A stretch of DNA of 32,700 bases from Bacteroidales bacterium (lineage in GTDB: Bacteria; Bacteroidota; Bacteroidia; Bacteroidales; JAADGE01), in assembly GCA_029934515.1 (NCBI GenBank), contig JAOZMB010000024.1, positions 1 to 32,700 on the forward strand. Direction: 5' to 3'. The notes below the pieces were generated by a model that saw nothing but the letters and a program-made list of their open reading frames with translations, was not told where the DNA came from and did no database searches. Positions 15,268 through 27,534 of the stretch are shown here, in pieces. The position numbers were made by a program, and so were the translations under genes. Numbering within the stretch: the first letter of the stretch is position 1; each line of letters opens with the position of its first letter.

Positions 15268-16155
15268 TTATGTTATTATTTCTGTTTCATCAAAACATTT
15301 TTCCATGCTTTTTCTCCAGTGTTTTATTTCGATATTAAATATTTTTTTGATTTTCGATTTATTCATAACACTAAAATGTGGTCTTTCAGCTGGCAATTTA
15401 TAATCTTTTGTTTCGATTGGATTTATTTGACACTTCAAGTTAGCTTTTCTAACTATTTCGTAAGCAAAATCGTACCAAGAGCATACTCCTTCATTTGAAT
15501 AATTGTAAGTTCCGAATTTAAAATCTGACTTTTCTGTTTTAAATGAATCTGAGTATTTTGTTGTAATTTTCATTATAACATTTGCTAAATCTCTGGCATA
15601 GGTTGGTGTTCCTATTTGGTCGAATATTACATTAATCATATTTTTCTTGGCTGCAAGTTTCATTATTGTCTTAAAGAAATTTTTTCCGTATGAAGAGTAC
15701 AGCCAAGATGTTCTAATAATAATGTGTTTTTCAATATTTTTGATTATTTTTTCGCCTCCGAGTTTTGTTTTTCCGTATGCAGATATTGGTTTTGTAATAT
15801 CTGTTTCAACATAAGGTCTTGCGTTTATTTTTCCGTCATAAACATAATCAGTTGATAAATGTATTATCGGACATTTATATTTTTCGGACATATCGGCAAG
15901 TATTTTTACTCCGGATATATTAATTTTTGAGGCAAGTTCGAAATTACTCTCGGCACCGTCAACATTTGTATATGCTGCACAATTAATAATAAAATCTATT
16001 ATATTATTATCAAAAAAAAATGAAACTGATTTTTTACAAGTTATATCTAAATTATTAATATCTGTAAATATAAATTTAAAATTTTTATAATTTGTTGATA
16101 TTTTTCTTATTTCTCTTCCTAATTGTCCGTTTGCTCCTGTTATGAGTATTTTCAT
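15268..16155 (-). CDS. rfbD: dTDP-4-dehydrorhamnose reductase
   Basis: RmlD (RfbD) does the last step of dTDP-L-rhamnose synthesis, reducing the 4-keto sugar with NAD(P)H. The 295-residue protein has the nucleotide-binding loop GANGQLG at residues 7-13, the INCAAYTNVDGAE stretch near 57-69, the STDYVYDG motif near 101-108, and the catalytic pair Y127-x3-K131 (AYGKTKLGGE). Length and motifs match the family. The other rhamnose genes (rmlA, B, C) are not in this window. It points to rhamnose or a related deoxysugar in the surface glycan made by the genes further right. It is followed at a distance of 151 bases by fbp on the same strand (upstream). Confidence 0.93.
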   Translation of the reverse strand: MKILITGANGQLGREIRKISTNYKNFKFIFTDINNLDITCKKSVSFFFDNNIIDFIINCAAYTNVDGAESNFELASKINISGVKILADMSEKYKCPIIHLSTDYVYDGKINARPYVETDITKPISAYGKTKLGGEKIIKNIEKHIIIRTSWLYSSYGKNFFKTIMKLAAKKNMINVIFDQIGTPTYARDLANVIMKITTKYSDSFKTEKSDFKFGTYNYSNEGVCSWYDFAYEIVRKANLKCQINPIETKDYKLPAERPHFSVMNKSKIKKIFNIEIKHWRKSMEKCFDETEIIT

Positions 16156-17314: not shown

Positions 17315-17679
17315 AACAAATATATTTATATTAAAAATAAGTTTGTAAAGTTATAAACTATAAATAGAATAGCTAATAAAATATAATAAAATGCAAATGC
17401 AAACGCATCAAAAATAAATTATTCTTCATTATCTCAATAATGTTATGTTTTTAAAGCCATTAAAAATCACTATTTTGAAAATAGTAATTCCTTGATTTTT
17501 CAGCACTTAAATATTTTGATGCATCTTCCTTTATCGTCTTTTAAAGAAATCTTTGATAATATATAATTTTCTCCACAAATTTAAATTAGAACCATTTCAA
17601 TGGAAGTACCAGTTATTTTACGTATTTTTTATAAAAATAAATTTATGTTTATGAGAAATTATCATATTCTATTACATTT
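17315..17679. other. 365-base intergenic space with a long family B element
   Basis: The space between the sulfotransferase and fbp contains a long variant of repeat B (17399-17525). No coding frame, RNA or clear promoter was recognised outside the repeat. It marks the boundary between the metabolic genes and the sulfotransferase operon. Confidence 0.5.
17399..17525. repeat. Dispersed repeat family B, copy 3, long variant with inverted ends
   Basis: The left end GCAAACGCATCAAAA (17399-17413) is partly repeated inverted at the right end (TTTTGATGCATC, 17514-17525). The right half (17466-17525) carries the family core, including a near palindrome CTATTTTGAAAATAG. The left half, about 65 bases, is unlike the other copies. 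The layout resembles a small non-autonomous mobile element (MITE). Confidence 0.65.
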
Positions 17680-18555
17680 TTATTTATACCAAATACTTAA
17701 ATTTTTATCAATCATTTTTTCTAAATTTAAAATACTTTGCTTGTAAATATCATTGATAAGATACGGTTTCAGTTTTTTTAACTTATTTTTTCGTATGTTC
17801 GTGTTCACATGTGAATTTTTTGTCAAAAATTGTTTTATCAAGGCTCTTGCTTTTCGACTTGGAATTATTTTTTTTGCGAATTGATTTATCGGATTTGCTG
17901 TATTTAATAATTTATCAAAATTTTTATTTGTTATTTTTACGCCAGGCATCATTCTGATATTTGTATCCAATTTTATTGGATTTACGTTCAGAAATTTCTG
18001 TATTTTATAATATGTTTGTTCAATATTTTTGTTAATATCGGTTTCATAAATAAGAAACAGCATATTTTTTTTGTCAAAAACGTTCAAATATTTCTGAAGT
18101 AATATGTCATAAAATCCTTTATGCACGTAGTTTGTATATAATATGTTTGTTATACCGCCTTGAATTTCTGTTTTAACGATTTCATTAAAAGTTCTTTTTT
18201 CTCTTAATTTTCTTGTCATCATTTTATAATGCGAAAATGCTCTTGTCGCAGGATTTCTGAAAATAAAAATCAATTTAATATTATTGCCGAGATGCTTTTG
18301 CAAATGTTCTGGATTTGCTTCAAATAAGTAAGTCGGTGCAATTTCTCCAATTATCCTTTCATTTTTTACATCTTCAAATAATTTTTTATAATGACTAATT
18401 CCTTTTTTATAATTTCTGCAAAAGAAAAAACTTTCTTTGATTTTATCATTTAAATATATTTCAGGATGTTGTTTCAGTATAAAATACATTGACGTAGTTC
18501 CTGTTTTAGATGTGCCTACACATAAGAAATTCGGAAGTTTAATGTTATTTTTCAT
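17680..18555 (-). CDS. PAPS-dependent sulfotransferase
   Basis: The 291-residue protein transfers sulfate from PAPS to an acceptor. The 5'-phosphosulfate loop GTSKTGTTSM is at residues 14-23, a KESFFF stretch follows near 40-45, and the 3'-phosphate binding motif RNPATRAFSHYKM is at 100-112. This is the arrangement of the carbohydrate-type (heparan sulfate/NDST-like) sulfotransferases. The start codon overlaps the stop of the upstream radical SAM gene in a TAATG junction, so translation is probably coupled. It is the last gene of a three-gene minus-strand operon whose first gene also carries a sulfotransferase domain. The acceptor is unknown, and a surface polysaccharide or glycolipid is the likeliest. 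Confidence 0.87.
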   Translation of the reverse strand: MKNNIKLPNFLCVGTSKTGTTSMYFILKQHPEIYLNDKIKESFFFCRNYKKGISHYKKLFEDVKNERIIGEIAPTYLFEANPEHLQKHLGNNIKLIFIFRNPATRAFSHYKMMTRKLREKRTFNEIVKTEIQGGITNILYTNYVHKGFYDILLQKYLNVFDKKNMLFLIYETDINKNIEQTYYKIQKFLNVNPIKLDTNIRMMPGVKITNKNFDKLLNTANPINQFAKKIIPSRKARALIKQFLTKNSHVNTNIRKNKLKKLKPYLINDIYKQSILNLEKMIDKNLSIWYK

Positions 18556-19427
18556 TATTGACTGTATTTGTTTAGTATTTTGACATTAATTAAATTTCGT
18601 CTCCACAAGTATAGTAATCCTCTGTTTTTTATTCTTCCATATCGTGTTGATTTATAAGAACTTGTGATATAACAACTACTGCAAAGTTTGTATTTTTTCC
18701 TACTATTTGGTTTTAAAAGCTTATTAAAAATTTCTGTATGTTTATTTGAATACCAAATATCACTGATAGAATTTGTAAAAACATTCCCAAGTTTAAATTC
18801 ACAACCGTCATCTTGACAACACAAAGATACTTCGCCATCGTATCTGATAAGGAATACTTTTAATCTGTTTTGCGGACAAGGTTCTGCGAGTATCTGGTCA
18901 TTTTTTTTTTGTTTATTGTAAATTTTTGAATTTTGGCGAATATTGGTATATTCGAGAGGTAATGAAAATTTTATTTTTGTTTTATTAAATCTTTTATTCC
19001 AAAATTTAATTTGTTCCTGTTTTTGTTTGTAATTTTTATAGTTGTATAATCCAATCGTGAGCGTATCAATACAACCGTCCAGTTCTTCGCAAAGTTCTTT
19101 ATTTTTTCGCAAAATATCACCGTTTGTATGTTCTTTGATTTTCATTCCTTTTGAAAAAGCATATTTTGCAAAATCTTTATATCTTTTGTCTATCAACGGC
19201 TCTGATAATCGGTGAAATCTTATTATCCCTTTGTAACCGTAATCAAAAAGCCAATCAATAATTGCATATACTTTTTCAGACGGCATTTTCTTTTTTACAG
19301 GTTTTCCGTTTTCATCTTTTCTAATGCCGGTTCTGTCATAATATCTTGGACAAAAACTGCATTTTCTGTTGCAAAAAGATTGTATTTCTATTTCAACTCT
19401 GTTCCATTGAGGAATTTTATTTTTCAT
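18555..19427 (-). CDS. Radical SAM protein with SPASM-type C-terminal domain
   Basis: The 290-residue protein has the radical SAM cluster motif C19-x3-C23-x2-C26 (CNRKCSFC) right after an IEIQSF strand, so it should bind a 4Fe-4S cluster and make a 5'-deoxyadenosyl radical. The C-terminal part has further cysteines (C184, C203, C204, C209, C249, C252) in the order seen in SPASM domains (EPCPQNR, then VSLCCQDDGC, then LCSSC), which bind one or two auxiliary clusters. SPASM enzymes act on peptides (RiPP maturation, sulfatase activation) and also occur, with unknown substrates, in polysaccharide loci. Here it sits between two sulfotransferase genes: 5 bases after the first and sharing a TAATG junction with the second. 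No precursor peptide gene was found nearby. The function is unknown. Confidence 0.85.
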   Translation of the reverse strand: MKNKIPQWNRVEIEIQSFCNRKCSFCPRYYDRTGIRKDENGKPVKKKMPSEKVYAIIDWLFDYGYKGIIRFHRLSEPLIDKRYKDFAKYAFSKGMKIKEHTNGDILRKNKELCEELDGCIDTLTIGLYNYKNYKQKQEQIKFWNKRFNKTKIKFSLPLEYTNIRQNSKIYNKQKKNDQILAEPCPQNRLKVFLIRYDGEVSLCCQDDGCEFKLGNVFTNSISDIWYSNKHTEIFNKLLKPNSRKKYKLCSSCYITSSYKSTRYGRIKNRGLLYLWRRNLINVKILNKYSQ

Positions 19428-19432
19428 TTTTT

Positions 19433-21202
19433 TTAATAATAATTATAACCGAATTTTTCGGCTGTTTTTTTACAAATATCTATAATTTTTTCTCGTTCTT
19501 CTTTATGTAAAACACTAATATCACTTCTAATTTCCGAGTTGTAAAAATCAAGTTTAAATTCAAATTGCGGATATTTTTCCTGTATTTTTTTTATTTCGTA
19601 ATTCGTATTTGTAACAAAATTTTCGTATTTCAAAACTACAATTTTTTCTTTATTTTCGTAAATTATTTGTGCAAGAAAATTCCAAAGTAAAGCTCTTTTT
19701 ATTTCAAAATCATTTTCATTTTTAATTTGTGTAATTTCTTGAATTTGTTTTTCCGAGAAGTTATTTTTATGATTAATATTAACAGGAAAGTTTTCAAATC
19801 TAACATATCGCAAATGTTGAAAATTTTTTTTCCATGATGCTATTGTATCCAAAGGATTTCTAATACACGCAATTATTGGCATTTCTGGATATTCGTTTAT
19901 TATTTGTGGCAGAGCAAATAAATAGGCAAGTGTATTTTTTGTTATCAGGCAAAAATCCCTGTTTTCTACCTTGTGAATTGAGTAAGTTCGCGTATCTGTT
20001 TTTGCAGTGTCTTCTATAATTTTACCGTTTTTTATTTTGTTATTAACAACTTTACCAGAATTAATTTTTTTTCTTAAAATGTTATACATTGATTTTAATC
20101 GCCAAAGTTTTTTATTTCTTGACACAATGGTACGAATATATTCTGGCTCGTTAATCACGACTGTGTTTTTACGTGAATGTAACAATTTACATAAATAACT
20201 TGTTCCGCTTCTTGGTATTCCAGTGATTATAGCATTTTTTAGTTGTTTTTTATTTTTGTTATAGTAAAACATAAAATATATATTTTCTAAAATATTTTTA
20301 ATTTTAAAATATGTTATGACAAGTATTTTTTTGATAAAAATTTTTGATTTTATAATCGGATACGGATAAAATAATCCTCTCCATTCGGGCAATATTTTAG
20401 CATATTTTTTCAAAAGAGGATATTTTTTAATTAAATATTCCATATATTTAAAAACATTTTTTTCTTGAAATATTTTATAACGATAATGATAATGACAAAA
20501 AAATGGAATTTCGGATTTAATCGGTACAAGTTCGTGTATAGGATAATTATATTTGTTATCTAAAATTTTACATTTTAGTTGTTTTTTTTTCACTACTATC
20601 GGTAATGCTATTTGGTCTAGCCATGGTCTTTTGTCTGTAATATTTTTTGCTTCATCAATAATTTTACAACATTTAATCCATTCTTCCGAAAATTTTATAT
20701 TGTTATCAACAACTATTAATCCAGCATTAAAGTAAGGAAGTATTTTTTTCTTGTCAATAGTTGTTTCAAATCTTTCTTTCGGATAAGGTATTTCAAACAA
20801 TTCATAAACATGTTTCCATTCGTTAAACCAATGTTTATCAACAGGTTTTGCACAGAATTGTTCGTTAAAATGTTCTTTCGGCAAAAAAGGTTTCATGCAA
20901 ATAATATCACTGTCGAGAAATATTATTTTATCAGCATTTGTTTTTACTTTGAAACAACTTACTTTATTTCCTATCGGATAGTTTATATCTACTTCATTTC
21001 TAATATTTTCAATACGAATGTCAAGTTGTTTTATCATTTTTTTTGTTACAGCAGATATTTCTCCCCATTTTGATTTTGGTTCTGGCACGGCAGCGACTAA
21101 TTCATAATCTCCTCTTATATTTTCACGAAGCGATGTCGCAAGCAACATTGATTTAAGTTCTAATTCGCCCTTTTGACAAATAAATACAAAACAAAATTTC
21201 AT
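19433..21202 (-). CDS. Glycosyltransferase-sulfotransferase fusion protein
   Basis: The 589-residue protein joins two domains. Residues 1 to about 290 resemble a GT8/GT-A-like sugar transferase: an N-terminal FVFICQKGELELKSMLLATSL strand-helix, a metal-binding FLDSD motif (D97 and D99), a YFNAGLIVVD motif near 175 and a WLDQIALP stretch near 217. Residues about 320-589 form a PAPS sulfotransferase: 5'-phosphosulfate loop TGIPRSGTSYL near 327 and 3'-phosphate motif CIRNPLDTIASW near 447. A short hydrophobic/basic linker lies between. The fusion suggests that the same glycan is extended and then sulfated. It heads the minus-strand operon with the radical SAM and second sulfotransferase genes. 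The sugar and acceptor cannot be predicted. The N-terminal family is less certain than the C-terminal one. Confidence 0.78.
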   Translation of the reverse strand: MKFCFVFICQKGELELKSMLLATSLRENIRGDYELVAAVPEPKSKWGEISAVTKKMIKQLDIRIENIRNEVDINYPIGNKVSCFKVKTNADKIIFLDSDIICMKPFLPKEHFNEQFCAKPVDKHWFNEWKHVYELFEIPYPKERFETTIDKKKILPYFNAGLIVVDNNIKFSEEWIKCCKIIDEAKNITDKRPWLDQIALPIVVKKKQLKCKILDNKYNYPIHELVPIKSEIPFFCHYHYRYKIFQEKNVFKYMEYLIKKYPLLKKYAKILPEWRGLFYPYPIIKSKIFIKKILVITYFKIKNILENIYFMFYYNKNKKQLKNAIITGIPRSGTSYLCKLLHSRKNTVVINEPEYIRTIVSRNKKLWRLKSMYNILRKKINSGKVVNNKIKNGKIIEDTAKTDTRTYSIHKVENRDFCLITKNTLAYLFALPQIINEYPEMPIIACIRNPLDTIASWKKNFQHLRYVRFENFPVNINHKNNFSEKQIQEITQIKNENDFEIKRALLWNFLAQIIYENKEKIVVLKYENFVTNTNYEIKKIQEKYPQFEFKLDFYNSEIRSDISVLHKEEREKIIDICKKTAEKFGYNYY

Positions 21203-21466: not shown

Positions 21467-22342
21467 ATGAAAAATAAACTGGTCTCTATTTTAATGCCTG
21501 TTAAAAATGAAGAGCTATTCATAAAAGAGGCAATTAATAGTGTTTTGCAACAAACTTATCAAGATATTGAATTGATAATAGTAAATGATGGCTCAGATGA
21601 TAAAACAGAAGAGATTATATTGTCATTTAAAACAAAAAAAATAAAATTTATAAATACAAAAGGAATAGGTAAAAATGCTGCTTTTAATTTAGCTTTTTCC
21701 AACAGTAACGGAAATTATATTTGTTTTTTTGCTGGTGATGATATTCTAATGGAACGTTCTATAGAACTCAGAGTAAAACCGTTATTGGATAATAAAAATA
21801 CAGCATCACTTTCAAGACTTATAACTTTTTCGGAAGAAAAAAAATTTAATAATGTAATTATTCCCAAAAGCACAGATAAAGGGAACTTCTCTGGCGGTAC
21901 TATTATGTTCGACCGTTATTTATCAGAGAGGATATTTCCAATACCTGAAATACTTGCCAACGAAGATATGTGGACAGCACTTCATATTAAAAACTTCTCT
22001 AAAAATATTCATCATATTTCACATATTTTGTTAAAATACAGGATACACAAAAATAATTCAAATAGAAAAGATATTCCTTTCAAAGAAAAATCAATTTCCA
22101 TGCATAAAAGATTTATAGTTTATTCTGTTTTCCTTGAAAGATATAGAAATATTCTAAAATCTGATAATATTGAATATTTATCGTATATGTATGCTGCCGA
22201 AACACTAAGATACAGTAACAATACATTAGCAATATTATTACTAAAAAAAATTAGTATTTCAGAGAAGTTAAGATTTTTTGCATATTCAAGTAAACTGTTA
22301 TACAATATAAAAACAATATTTTTTAATTTATTAAGTTCTTAA
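21467..22342 (+). CDS. GT2-family glycosyltransferase
   Basis: This 291-residue GT-A fold transferase has the N-terminal family block VSILMPVKNEELFIKEAI (residues 5-22), the SVLQQTYQDIELIIVNDGSDD stretch with the first nucleotide-binding acidic group, and the FFAGDDILM metal-binding motif near 85-92. An acceptor-side ANEDMWTALHI segment (ED catalytic-type pair) follows near 165. The C-terminus lacks a membrane span. It should add a sugar to a lipid-linked or nascent glycan in the cytoplasm. It is followed by an O-antigen ligase-like gene and a beta-propeller gene in the same direction. Donor and linkage are not predictable. Confidence 0.9.
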   Translation: MKNKLVSILMPVKNEELFIKEAINSVLQQTYQDIELIIVNDGSDDKTEEIILSFKTKKIKFINTKGIGKNAAFNLAFSNSNGNYICFFAGDDILMERSIELRVKPLLDNKNTASLSRLITFSEEKKFNNVIIPKSTDKGNFSGGTIMFDRYLSERIFPIPEILANEDMWTALHIKNFSKNIHHISHILLKYRIHKNNSNRKDIPFKEKSISMHKRFIVYSVFLERYRNILKSDNIEYLSYMYAAETLRYSNNTLAILLLKKISISEKLRFFAYSSKLLYNIKTIFFNLLSS

Positions 22343-22501: not shown

Positions 22502-23776
22502 ATGGATTTAAAAATCAAAATTAAGAACAAAACGGCTCATATAAGTTATTTAATTTCTTTATTATATGCTTTTATTATTCCGTTAAGCATTGCTTTTATG
22601 AATATACTTATTGCTGGTTTTTGTATTTTATTAATTTTATTTCTTTTCGAAGATGGTAATCTTAAACATAAATTTTATGAAATTAATAATCGGCAAAAGC
22701 TTTTTATAGCAGTTGGGTTTCTTATTTTTGTTTTTTATTTGCTTGGTATCATAAAAAGCAACGACAAATTAAAAGCATTAGAAATAGCTGGAAGAATAAG
22801 CTCTTTTGTTATATTTCCGTTTTTTTATTTGTTCTATAAAGAAGAAATACAATCAAGAATCGAAAATATTTTAAAAGCATTTATATTAGGAAATCTTATT
22901 GCTGTTCTAATTTGTATGATAAATGCAATTTATTTATATAACACAGATTCAGATGCTGAACGAAGTGTTTTTTTTTATAGGAGTTTTTCATTTTTTAGAC
23001 ATCCGGGATATTTTTCAATTTATATTTCAACGGCATTTGTTTTTCTTTATCACATTTATATTAAAAGCTACTTGAAAAAAAATATAATCCCAAAATTAAT
23101 AATTTATTTAATTGCTACATTATTTATCGTATCTATATTTTTACTTTCTTCCAGAGCTGGTTTTTTAGCTTTTTTCATTGTTCTGGTATTAATAATTATT
23201 AATATTTTTTTACAATTATCAAAAATAAGGTCAAAAATATTTTTGTTAGCAATGCTTGTTATTTTTATTTCTTCTTGGATTTATAATCCTCGTTTTGAAA
23301 GGACAAAAAATAATGTAGAGAATATTTTTAATAAAGATGCTAAAACAATTAATAAGTTTCCAAGATTAATTTTGTGGAAAGCATCAATAGAAGTGATATC
23401 AGAAAATTTAATAACAGGTGTAGGAACAACAAATGTATCGACCAATTTATATAAGAAACATAAAATAGAAAAACGTAAAGGATTGCATTCACATAATCAA
23501 TTTCTTGAATTTTTTGCTGAATTCGGAATTTTTGCTTTTCTTACTATTATATTATTTTTTATTATTATTTTTATTGAAATATTTAGAAGAAGTTCTTTTT
23601 TGCTTCTAAATTTTACTGTAATAATAATTACAGCTTTTATGTTTGAGGTCTTTTTGGAAATAGTCTCAGGAGGTGCTTATTTCGTTCCTTTCTTTTTTTA
23701 TCTTTTTATGATTGCTTACGAAAAGAATAAAATTTATGACAGTCTGCACAAAAAACTTTACAGTAATGATACGTAA
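22502..23776 (+). CDS. O-antigen ligase / polymerase-family membrane protein
   Basis: The 424-residue protein is polytopic, with about ten to twelve hydrophobic spans. The family signature (Wzy_C/WaaL type) is seen in LSSRAGFLAFFIVL (near residue 215) and, in the large periplasmic loop, GVGTTNVSTNLYKKH and KGLHSHNQFLEFFAEFGIF (near 305-340), where the Arg and His residues are important in known ligases. Such proteins either ligate undecaprenyl-linked glycan to lipid A core, transfer glycan to proteins, or polymerise repeat units; these cannot be separated by sequence alone. Its place between a GT2 enzyme and a beta-propeller gene fits surface glycan assembly. Confidence 0.83.
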   Translation: MDLKIKIKNKTAHISYLISLLYAFIIPLSIAFMNILIAGFCILLILFLFEDGNLKHKFYEINNRQKLFIAVGFLIFVFYLLGIIKSNDKLKALEIAGRISSFVIFPFFYLFYKEEIQSRIENILKAFILGNLIAVLICMINAIYLYNTDSDAERSVFFYRSFSFFRHPGYFSIYISTAFVFLYHIYIKSYLKKNIIPKLIIYLIATLFIVSIFLLSSRAGFLAFFIVLVLIIINIFLQLSKIRSKIFLLAMLVIFISSWIYNPRFERTKNNVENIFNKDAKTINKFPRLILWKASIEVISENLITGVGTTNVSTNLYKKHKIEKRKGLHSHNQFLEFFAEFGIFAFLTIILFFIIIFIEIFRRSSFLLLNFTVIIITAFMFEVFLEIVSGGAYFVPFFFYLFMIAYEKNKIYDSLHKKLYSNDT

Positions 23777-25487: not shown

Positions 25488-26384
25488 TTACAAACCTCTG
25501 ACATCCAGCACAATGTTATCTGCTTTGTTGTCATTTGTTCCTATTTCAAATAACGATGGCATCTCTGGTTTTTTTGATAAATTATTAGTTTCAATATTTT
25601 TATTTTTTATAAAATCTAAGCGATATTTGGCACTAATATTTCCATTATTTTTTAATCTATCTTGTATCATTTCATAATAATCAGGGTGTATTTCGCAACT
25701 TATAAAATTACGTTTTAAATCTTTACATAAAATTATTTCTGAGCCACTACCGCCAAAATGTATAAAAACGTCATCGTTTGGTTTCGTGCTGGCTTCTATA
25801 AATAATTCAATTAATGATAATGGTATTTGGCATGAATGAAATGTTTTATCTTTTGAAACATTTTTTACAAGATTGTAATTTAACCACGAATACGGCATCC
25901 TTCCTTTGTGTCCATCTGCAATACGTTGTTTTATTCTTTTATCTGTTGGATTTTTATATGGTTGAGCAACTTGTTCTTTATAAAAACTATTCTTTTTTGT
26001 TTTTGTAGCATGTAAAATTGAACGATGAGCATTTGTGAATTTTCTTGGGCTATGTCCTATATTTGTGTTATAAACCCAAACATAATCAAATACTTCATAA
26101 GCTGCTTTGTGTAAATATTTTACACTTAAATAGGCATTTTGTTTTGGATAATTTATTAAAAATAAATTCCCTGTTGGTTTTAAAACTCGCATGCTCTCTT
26201 TGGCAAGTTCAATATACCATTCAATATATTTATCCCATTTTTGAGTATAGTTTTTACCCGAATAATTTATTCCAACATTGTAATCAGGGTCTCCGTAAAC
26301 CATATCAATAGAATTCTCTGGTAATTCTTTTAATACTTCAATTACGTCTCTATTGAATACTGTATTTCTAAAATTAGTTATCAT
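25488..26384 (-). CDS. DNA methyltransferase, beta class (N6-adenine or N4-cytosine)
   Basis: The 298-residue enzyme should transfer a methyl group from SAM to a base in a specific DNA site. The catalytic motif IV is near the N-terminus: YGDPDYNVGINY, with D32-P-D-Y35 in place of the common DPPY. The SAM-binding motif I follows much later (IHFGGSGSEII, F210 to E216), which is the beta-class order. A HSCQIPLSLIELFI helix precedes motif I, where HPTQKP is usual, and FISCEIHPDYYEMI follows. Motif D-P-D-Y is a rare variant but keeps the essential D, P and Y. It is the last gene of an operon with a GNAT and a restriction-like nuclease, each overlapping by one base. The recognition site is unknown. 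Confidence 0.88.
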   Translation of the reverse strand: MITNFRNTVFNRDVIEVLKELPENSIDMVYGDPDYNVGINYSGKNYTQKWDKYIEWYIELAKESMRVLKPTGNLFLINYPKQNAYLSVKYLHKAAYEVFDYVWVYNTNIGHSPRKFTNAHRSILHATKTKKNSFYKEQVAQPYKNPTDKRIKQRIADGHKGRMPYSWLNYNLVKNVSKDKTFHSCQIPLSLIELFIEASTKPNDDVFIHFGGSGSEIILCKDLKRNFISCEIHPDYYEMIQDRLKNNGNISAKYRLDFIKNKNIETNNLSKKPEMPSLFEIGTNDNKADNIVLDVRGL

Positions 26385-26728
26385 TATTTTATAATTTTTT
26401 TCATTAAAATTATTGAATTCTGATCTATATCAAAAATATAATCAATATGAGCATCGGAGCTATTAATACATTCAATTATGTCTTTTTCTTTTTTATCAAT
26501 TGGCACAAAATTATTTTTTATCCAAAAAGAAATTGCTAACTTTGATTGATTAGCAGAAACAATAACTTCCTTAACTCCATTGTTTAAAAATATTTTTTCA
26601 GACTGTTTGAGTAATTTAGAGCCATATCCTTTTTGTCTGTATTTTTTTTTGATTTCAAGAAAAATAATATTTGCAATATTATTATCTATTATATATTCTA
26701 TGTATCCATATTTATTAATAAGTTTCAT
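26384..26728 (-). CDS. Small GNAT-family acetyltransferase inside a restriction-modification operon
   Basis: The 114-residue protein has the acetyl-CoA pyrophosphate-binding motif RQKGYGSKLLKQSEKIF (residues about 31-47, R/Q-x-x-G-x-G type), a strand VKEVIVSAN, and the ISFWIKNNFVP motif typical of GNAT folds. It is shorter than most members (about 140-170). The usual N-terminal strands are reduced, but motif A is intact, so it may be active. Both junctions are TAATG overlaps: its start overlaps the restriction-like gene, and its stop overlaps the methyltransferase start. The substrate is unknown. It could acetylate a small molecule, a protein of the system or, less likely, a DNA base in the manner of the GNAT-like Mom protein. 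Confidence 0.8.
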   Translation of the reverse strand: MKLINKYGYIEYIIDNNIANIIFLEIKKKYRQKGYGSKLLKQSEKIFLNNGVKEVIVSANQSKLAISFWIKNNFVPIDKKEKDIIECINSSDAHIDYIFDIDQNSIILMKKIIK

Positions 26729-27534
26729 TAGTTTTGTTTTATAAGTTTGTAAGTAGCAGATTTTAAAAGTTTTATTGTAGAAATATCATAAGGATTTGAA
26801 AACGTATATGCCCAAAGATTTAAATAATTAATATCTTCTTTTACAGTTCTTACAAGATATACACAAATAATCTTTTTCAATTTTTTATTTATATCGATAT
26901 CTTTTTTGGCTTTGTGATAATATAGAAACGGGTGGTATATTTGATAAACGGCAAAACTGTCTAGCTTTCCATTTTTAGCTTCAAAAATTCCGACAGTTCC
27001 ACTATATTCAATTGTTAAATCTATTTCAATTTGAATTTTTTCTAATTCAATTGTGATATTTTTGCCAATATTATAAGAGAAACTTGTTTTTGTTCTGTGA
27101 GGGAAGTATGTTTTTGGACGTTTAGAAATGTCAATATCATCAAATTCAGTATCTTTACCAAATAAAAAGTCGTGTAGTATTCTCTGATTATTTGCAACGG
27201 AAAGTATATTACTTTCACTTGTATTGTAAAGGTTTAACATACTTTTTTTGTATTTCCATTTTATCTCTTTTTTGATAGGTTCAAAATCGTGGTAAACATT
27301 TTTTATGCCTTTAACAAATTTATGATTTCCATTTCCAAGATGAATTATTGCATAATCATTTTCTTTTAAGATTGTAGGTAATTTAGCCTTATTATCAATT
27401 TTTGTTACATCAAAAGGATTACCAAAATTATATTTTTTTGAAATTTCTTTTACTAAATCATTGTGAAATACGTATTTTTTTCTTTTTTCACAGATTTTAA
27501 ATAATTCAGTAATTACTTGTTCTTTTTTGCTCAT
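26728..27534 (-). CDS. Type II restriction endonuclease-like PD-(D/E)XK protein
   Basis: The 268-residue protein starts with a helical region (residues 1-80, with NGNHKFVKG near 68-76) that may be a DNA-binding winged-helix part. The catalytic core shows E170-I-D172 in a strand, a 12-residue gap, then E185-A-K187 in GIFEAKNGKLD, which matches the D-x(n)-E-x-K nuclease motif. QIYHPFLYYHKAKK and IICVYLVRT follow as the next helix and strand of the fold. With a methyltransferase two genes downstream, a type II restriction enzyme is the best reading. I do not recognise its exact family or cut site. The adjacent GNAT gene begins at its stop codon. The upstream 339 bases contain repeat A copy 4. 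Confidence 0.75.
   Translation of the reverse strand: MSKKEQVITELFKICEKRKKYVFHNDLVKEISKKYNFGNPFDVTKIDNKAKLPTILKENDYAIIHLGNGNHKFVKGIKNVYHDFEPIKKEIKWKYKKSMLNLYNTSESNILSVANNQRILHDFLFGKDTEFDDIDISKRPKTYFPHRTKTSFSYNIGKNITIELEKIQIEIDLTIEYSGTVGIFEAKNGKLDSFAVYQIYHPFLYYHKAKKDIDINKKLKKIICVYLVRTVKEDINYLNLWAYTFSNPYDISTIKLLKSATYKLIKQN

Follow-up and report, generated by a model that had tools for sequence, protein, structure and literature searches.

Three joined open reading frames on the minus strand of a contig from a Bacteroidales bacterium are predicted to encode a fusion of a GT-A-like glycosyltransferase with a sulfotransferase, a radical SAM protein and a further sulfotransferase. Together they are most likely a strain-specific operon for the tailoring of a surface glycan, and among the genomes examined the trio occurs only here. 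To the joint claim that the operon combines sulfation with a radical step of the BtrN type on a sugar of one surface glycan, we give an even chance; a role in a sulfated glycan stands on firmer ground than either the precise radical reaction or the action of all three proteins on a single molecule. The window referred to below is the whole stretch of DNA that was analysed (32,700 nucleotides).

The operon and its sulfotransferases

The preliminary description had read three tightly joined minus-strand genes, and ORF coordinates and domain matches bear this out (Table 1): a gap of 5 bases separates the fusion gene from the radical SAM gene, which overlaps the gene of the 291-aa sulfotransferase by one base (TAATG). 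Domains, motifs and gene order are read from the DNA itself and, since the complete domains carry intact motifs, the domain content is not due to chance. The RmlD gene lies on the same strand as the operon, with the fructose-bisphosphatase gene in between. A broken third sulfotransferase at ~17430-17660 was considered and rejected, as neither Pfam nor tblastn gave support for it.

Table 1 Features of the operon and its surroundings in the window.
Feature	Position	Strand	Basis
Putative GT-A-like/sulfotransferase fusion, 589 aa	19433-21202	-	Pfam and homolog of the glycosyltransferase half
Putative glycosyltransferase half of the fusion, aa 1 to ~290, FLDSD at aa 95-99	20333-21202	-	27%-identical homolog
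Sulfotransferase domain of the fusion	19577-20236	-	Pfam; TGIPRSGTSYL at 20192-20224, CIRNPLDTIASW at 19832-19867
Predicted BtrN-like radical SAM protein with twitch domain, 290 aa	18555-19427	-	Pfam, PDB profile search, AF2 model, fold searches, cysteine positions
Predicted stand-alone PAPS sulfotransferase, 291 aa	17680-18555	-	Pfam, PDB matches
Family-2 glycosyltransferase, divergent neighbour (context only)	21467-22342	+	Pfam 1e-27
Wzy_C O-antigen ligase/polymerase-like protein, divergent neighbour (context only)	22502-23776	+	Pfam 1.5e-21
RmlD, dTDP-4-dehydrorhamnose reductase (context only)	15268-16155	-	TIGR01214 above cut-off
Fructose-bisphosphatase, between RmlD and operon	16307-17314

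Residues 323-542 of the fusion match Sulfotransfer_3 (4.4e-11) and Sulfotransfer_1 above the curated cut-off of Pfam, and both the 5'-phosphosulfate loop (TGIPRSGTSYL, residues 327-337) and the 3'-phosphate motif (CIRNPLDTIASW) are intact. The same is true for the 291-aa protein, which matches Sulfotransfer_1 (1e-14) and Sulfotransfer_3 above the curated cut-off and has an intact loop (VGTSKTGTTSM, residues 13-23) and 3'-phosphate motif (FRNPATRAFSHY). In the PDB this protein finds the bacterial sulfotransferase 3RNL (8e-20) and heparan sulfate 3-O-sulfotransferases (1T8T and others, ~1e-14), with which it has the PAPS-binding motifs and sequence similarity in common, but at low identity; the latter enzymes act on a heparan chain. 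The motifs seen earlier in both proteins are thus not degenerate. Both proteins are divergent and no NCBIfam equivalog scores above cut-off for either, but with these motifs, the Pfam matches and a complete PAPS route in the genome it is very unlikely that the two are not active PAPS sulfotransferases.

The N-terminal half of the fusion has no Pfam match of its own. It is 27% identical to a 331-aa homolog from a genome of another class of the phylum (G304; L048:9127-10122) that matches PF03407 just above cut-off, and the DxD-type motif FLDSDI is common to the two; based on this homolog and motif, the half is probably a GT-A-like glycosyltransferase. In L048 the gene of the homolog overlaps a gene for a 243-aa sulfotransferase (Pfam) by 4 bases, so that the link between glycosyltransferase and sulfotransferase is seen twice, fused here and as neighbouring genes there. 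A second genome of the phylum (G560, locus L049) has tandem sulfotransferases in one glycan region together with a sulfotransferase-GT4 fusion, whose order is opposite to that of the fusion described here. L048 and L049 have no radical SAM gene between their glycosyltransferase and sulfotransferase genes, in contrast to our operon.

The PAPS route is genetically complete. The preliminary description had looked to PAPS-forming genes in the same genome, and they were indeed found, on other contigs and away from the operon: CysD (above cut-off, contig C145), whose neighbour reads by eye as a Wzx-like flippase, CysN (above cut-off, contig C101) and an APS kinase (contig C23) near a family-2 glycosyltransferase and a protein with a sub-threshold match to Wzz. 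CysH scores above cut-off with the APS-reductase model and, because sulfate assimilation with an enzyme of this type need not use PAPS, PAPS is probably made for sulfation. The genome encodes a third sulfotransferase on contig C22. In the phylum, Sulfotransfer_1 (Pfam) is present in 67 of 296 genomes, and loci with several sulfotransferases exist (L049). Sulfotransferases are a minority trait there, yet not unusual, and the earlier view that PAPS sulfotransferases are not usual in Bacteroidota surface loci is not supported.

The radical SAM protein and its relatives

The middle protein matches Radical_SAM and SPASM (PF13186), both above the curated cut-off of Pfam. The cysteines of its SAM-cluster motif CX3CX2C (CNRKCSFC, residues 19-26; C19, C23 and C26) are invariant in 68-70 relatives. 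Past residue 180 it has cysteines only at positions 184, 203, 204, 209, 249 and 252; C184, C203, C249 and C252 all align with cysteines of the BtrN twitch domain and are invariant or nearly so among the relatives. The seven-Cys SPASM motif is defined as CX9-15GX4C-gap-CX2CX5CX3C-gap-C (PMC6231123), and judged from the cysteine positions its CX2CX5CX3C part is absent from the protein. By this definition the cysteines fit a one-cluster twitch domain and not a two-cluster SPASM domain. Of the "radical SAM enzyme with SPASM-like cysteines" described before, the radical SAM assignment stands by motif and Pfam match, whereas the SPASM cysteines turned out to be the four of a twitch domain.

In a single-sequence search of the PDB, BtrN was the sole match at E values up to 1 (2.8e-13). 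BtrN is the 2-deoxy-scyllo-inosamine dehydrogenase of butirosin biosynthesis (PDB 4M7S/4M7T); it oxidises an alcohol of this aminocyclitol, and the second electron is believed to pass to the auxiliary cluster of the enzyme (PMC9012708). Scanning with the single radical SAM sequence gave no relatives, whereas an alignment scan of genome contigs yielded 252, of which 80 loci were kept. The family profile of these relatives matched BtrN in the PDB with 2.8e-69, and the next chain with 1.6e-9. An AF2 model built from 68 aligned sequences (pLDDT 80, pTM 0.80) was used, as the single-sequence model reached a pLDDT of 34. Its best match in Foldseek was again BtrN (3.5e-13) and, among the matches listed by VIA-align, BtrN had a Z of 22.7 (rmsd 2.3 over 207 residues) and the next one a Z of 15.1; absence from this list does not count against other radical SAM families. 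Sequence and model together place the radical SAM protein among the BtrN-like proteins, as a divergent member.

The two proteins are alike in size class, fold, the CX3CX2C motif and the equivalent places of the four auxiliary cysteines, and have the motifs EPL and TNGD in common, but they are only ~20-23% identical. In the tree, the branch leading to our protein is very long, at 3.5 changes per column, and the protein is at most ~33% identical to any relative. At least 90% of the relatives keep an NRxG segment with the arginine that is Arg152 in BtrN, which we take to be the substrate side. At this site our protein reads NIRQNSK, with the arginine one position off in the alignment, and the model has a pLDDT below 50 at residues 159-173. 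Since the segment is not clearly kept and the model is poor in this region, the substrate may well differ from that of BtrN; the long branch and this segment leave fold and chemistry class better supported than substrate. The genomic setting differs as well, an aminoglycoside cluster for BtrN and a sulfotransferase operon here. The twitch radical SAM dehydrogenase SpeY (PDB 7WZV) and BlsE (PDB 7VOB), a radical SAM enzyme acting on sugar- or cyclitol-derived substrates (PMC3715490), also combine substrates of the sugar/cyclitol type with a similar fold (Z ~13), but both are much less similar to our protein than BtrN and their pathways differ.

Among the immediate same-strand neighbours of the 80 relatives (n = 106) were 22 SDRs, 11 CMP-sugar cytidylyltransferases and ~10 methyltransferases; aminotransferases and glycosyltransferases were also among the commonest. 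A relative in Sodalis has an aminoglycoside-like setting, its gene being clustered with those of 2-deoxy-scyllo-inosose synthase and a PIG-L deacetylase, and in a genome of the same order as ours (L159) a relative directly follows a KDO-transferase-like gene (read by eye). These neighbours suggest that members of the BtrN-like family act on a sugar or cyclitol, in most cases in the making of surface glycans. With relatives encoded in surface-sugar loci, next to genes for SDRs, CMP-sugar synthetases and methyltransferases, a sugar is a likelier substrate than a peptide.

Modification of a peptide or protein, in RiPP biosynthesis or in sulfatase maturation as by anSME, is highly improbable. PF13186 and generic SPASM models do match and anSME is among the fold matches, but BtrN is far ahead of the peptide enzymes by both profile and fold. 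Moreover, the flanking intergenic gaps contain no precursor ORF, there is no such gap between the operon genes, no sulfatase was recognised among the window genes scanned, and the protein has about the length of BtrN, without an N-terminal extension of RRE size. We have rejected this role. The preliminary description had left the choice between an undescribed sulfated glycan and a peptide or aminosugar modified before sulfation; the sulfated glycan is plausible in view of the PAPS route and the intact motifs, and the peptide is unlikely.

Distribution of the trio

When 197 relatives were searched at E 1e-10, the radical SAM gene had no match, and the fusion gene is present in none of 246. The complete trio was found in 0 of ~395 genomes of the phylum, in which matches to the radical SAM protein are only distant or partial. 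Co-occurrence of the three genes in relatives had been put forward as the mark of a cassette, and the outcome speaks against it; a conserved cassette is rejected. That a radical SAM gene between two sulfotransferases is not a known cassette, as remarked earlier, agrees with our searches: no such glycosyltransferase-sulfotransferase/radical SAM/sulfotransferase arrangement is described in the literature or genomes searched, and nothing relevant was found in the literature on radical SAM enzymes with sulfotransferase or O-antigen loci.

A Pfam-confirmed sulfotransferase lies within ~8 kb of the radical SAM gene in 5 of the 80 loci (L081, L083, L109, L110 and L111), in the same direction or gene run but never adjacent, and the other 75 have none within this distance; this is a plain count from an HMM and motif sweep plus Pfam. 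Two of the five, L109 and L110, are near-identical in the tree. APS-kinase-like matches near L092, L101 and L121 may be other P-loop kinases and were not counted as evidence.

These data bear on a different reading of the operon, in which three unrelated glycan-tailoring genes were brought together by shuffling within a variable polysaccharide region without being parts of a single pathway. The uniqueness of the trio, the rarity of sulfotransferases near the relatives and the AT-richness of the three genes (25-28% GC versus 32-34% in the housekeeping genes of the window) would fit such a juxtaposition. However, the spacing is as tight as in an operon, and glycosyltransferase and sulfotransferase are independently paired in L048. 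We regard a chance assembly as possible but somewhat unlikely, and a tailoring operon remains the preferred reading.

A possible radical step on a sulfated glycan

We infer a common glycan, located at the surface, for all three proteins, and an oxidation rather than an epimerisation as the radical step. The operon would then serve to tailor a sulfated polysaccharide of the surface, of the O-antigen or capsule type. The glycosyltransferase half of the fusion would add a sugar, and the sulfotransferase half and the stand-alone enzyme would sulfate hydroxyl (or amino) groups of the glycan, with PAPS as the donor. The BtrN-like protein would use SAM and its [4Fe-4S] cluster to form a 5'-deoxyadenosyl radical that takes a hydrogen from a carbon of a sugar, either in this glycan or in its activated precursor. 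With the second electron passed to the single auxiliary cluster, a secondary alcohol would become a ketone, in a two-electron oxidation as in BtrN. In its full form, with a BtrN-type dehydrogenase that turns a sugar of a sulfated surface polysaccharide into the keto (or epimerised) form and with sulfation coupled to radical oxidation, this proposal is rather doubtful.

If the tailoring reading is right, it describes a route, open to testing, by which a sulfated surface glycan would acquire a sugar made by a radical SAM enzyme, and it would link BtrN, a dehydrogenase of an antibiotic pathway, to a large set of radical SAM proteins in bacterial and archaeal surface-polysaccharide loci. It is tempting to speculate that, if the coupled reading is true, the BtrN-like family (SAR11, archaea, Brachyspira and others) consists of surface-sugar enzymes and BtrN is one offshoot. 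For the window alone the weight is smaller, since the trio was seen once.

In the same sulfated glycan, the radical SAM protein could instead epimerise or otherwise edit a sugar carbon in a redox-neutral reaction, which we consider rather unlikely. Radical SAM epimerases belong to the same fold class (EpeE, Z 14.5), the SDRs beside the relatives could reduce an oxidised intermediate, and the substrate loop differs from that of BtrN. Against this, the nearest match in both sequence and fold is a dehydrogenase whose auxiliary cluster is fully ligated, and our protein keeps every one of the four ligands.

Radical SAM and sulfotransferase genes in other genomes

Two loci of radical SAM relatives (L081, L111) each contain a single co-directional run of glycan genes that encodes a BtrN-like radical SAM protein, a sulfotransferase and a P-loop protein resembling APS kinase. 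In G090, a genome of the same order, one polysaccharide gene run (L162) encodes both a sulfotransferase and a SPASM radical SAM protein, but the latter is not close to the radical SAM protein of the window. Tandem sulfotransferases, together with a sulfotransferase-GT4 fusion, are present in a glycan region of another Bacteroidota genome, G560 (L049).

Distribution of BtrN-like radical SAM genes

Taxa and neighbors were surveyed in 80 loci of relatives (L058-L136). In this sample, surface-sugar loci of Pelagibacteraceae frequently carry genes for BtrN-like twitch radical SAM proteins; archaea, Brachyspira, Patescibacteria and others have such genes too. Genes of this type often have SDR or CMP-sugar synthetase genes as neighbors.

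Further genes in the window and its genome

By eye, a stretch with a broken frame in the window (IIS.KHKFIFI...TGTSIE) resembles the start of another sulfotransferase, which was supported neither by Pfam nor by tblastn. On contig C22 of the same genome (L007), a radical SAM gene is directly followed by a putative polyprenyl glycosylphosphotransferase gene. The tightly ordered methyltransferase set of the window may be a restriction-modification unit.

Positions of the genes and gene runs discussed
Feature	Sequence	Position	Strand	Basis
Radical SAM/sulfotransferase/P-loop run	L081	402-4537		
Radical SAM/sulfotransferase/P-loop run	L111	7920-13392		
Polysaccharide run	L162	4637-9437		
Glycan region	L049	1984-10663		
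Broken frame	window	17430-17660	-	by eye
Third sulfotransferase	L007	38-796	-	
Radical SAM protein without SPASM match	L007	6599-7612	+	
Putative polyprenyl glycosylphosphotransferase	L007	7679-9097	+	
N6/N4 DNA methyltransferase, GNAT, DUF6996/DUF6997 protein	window	25488-27534	-	Pfam
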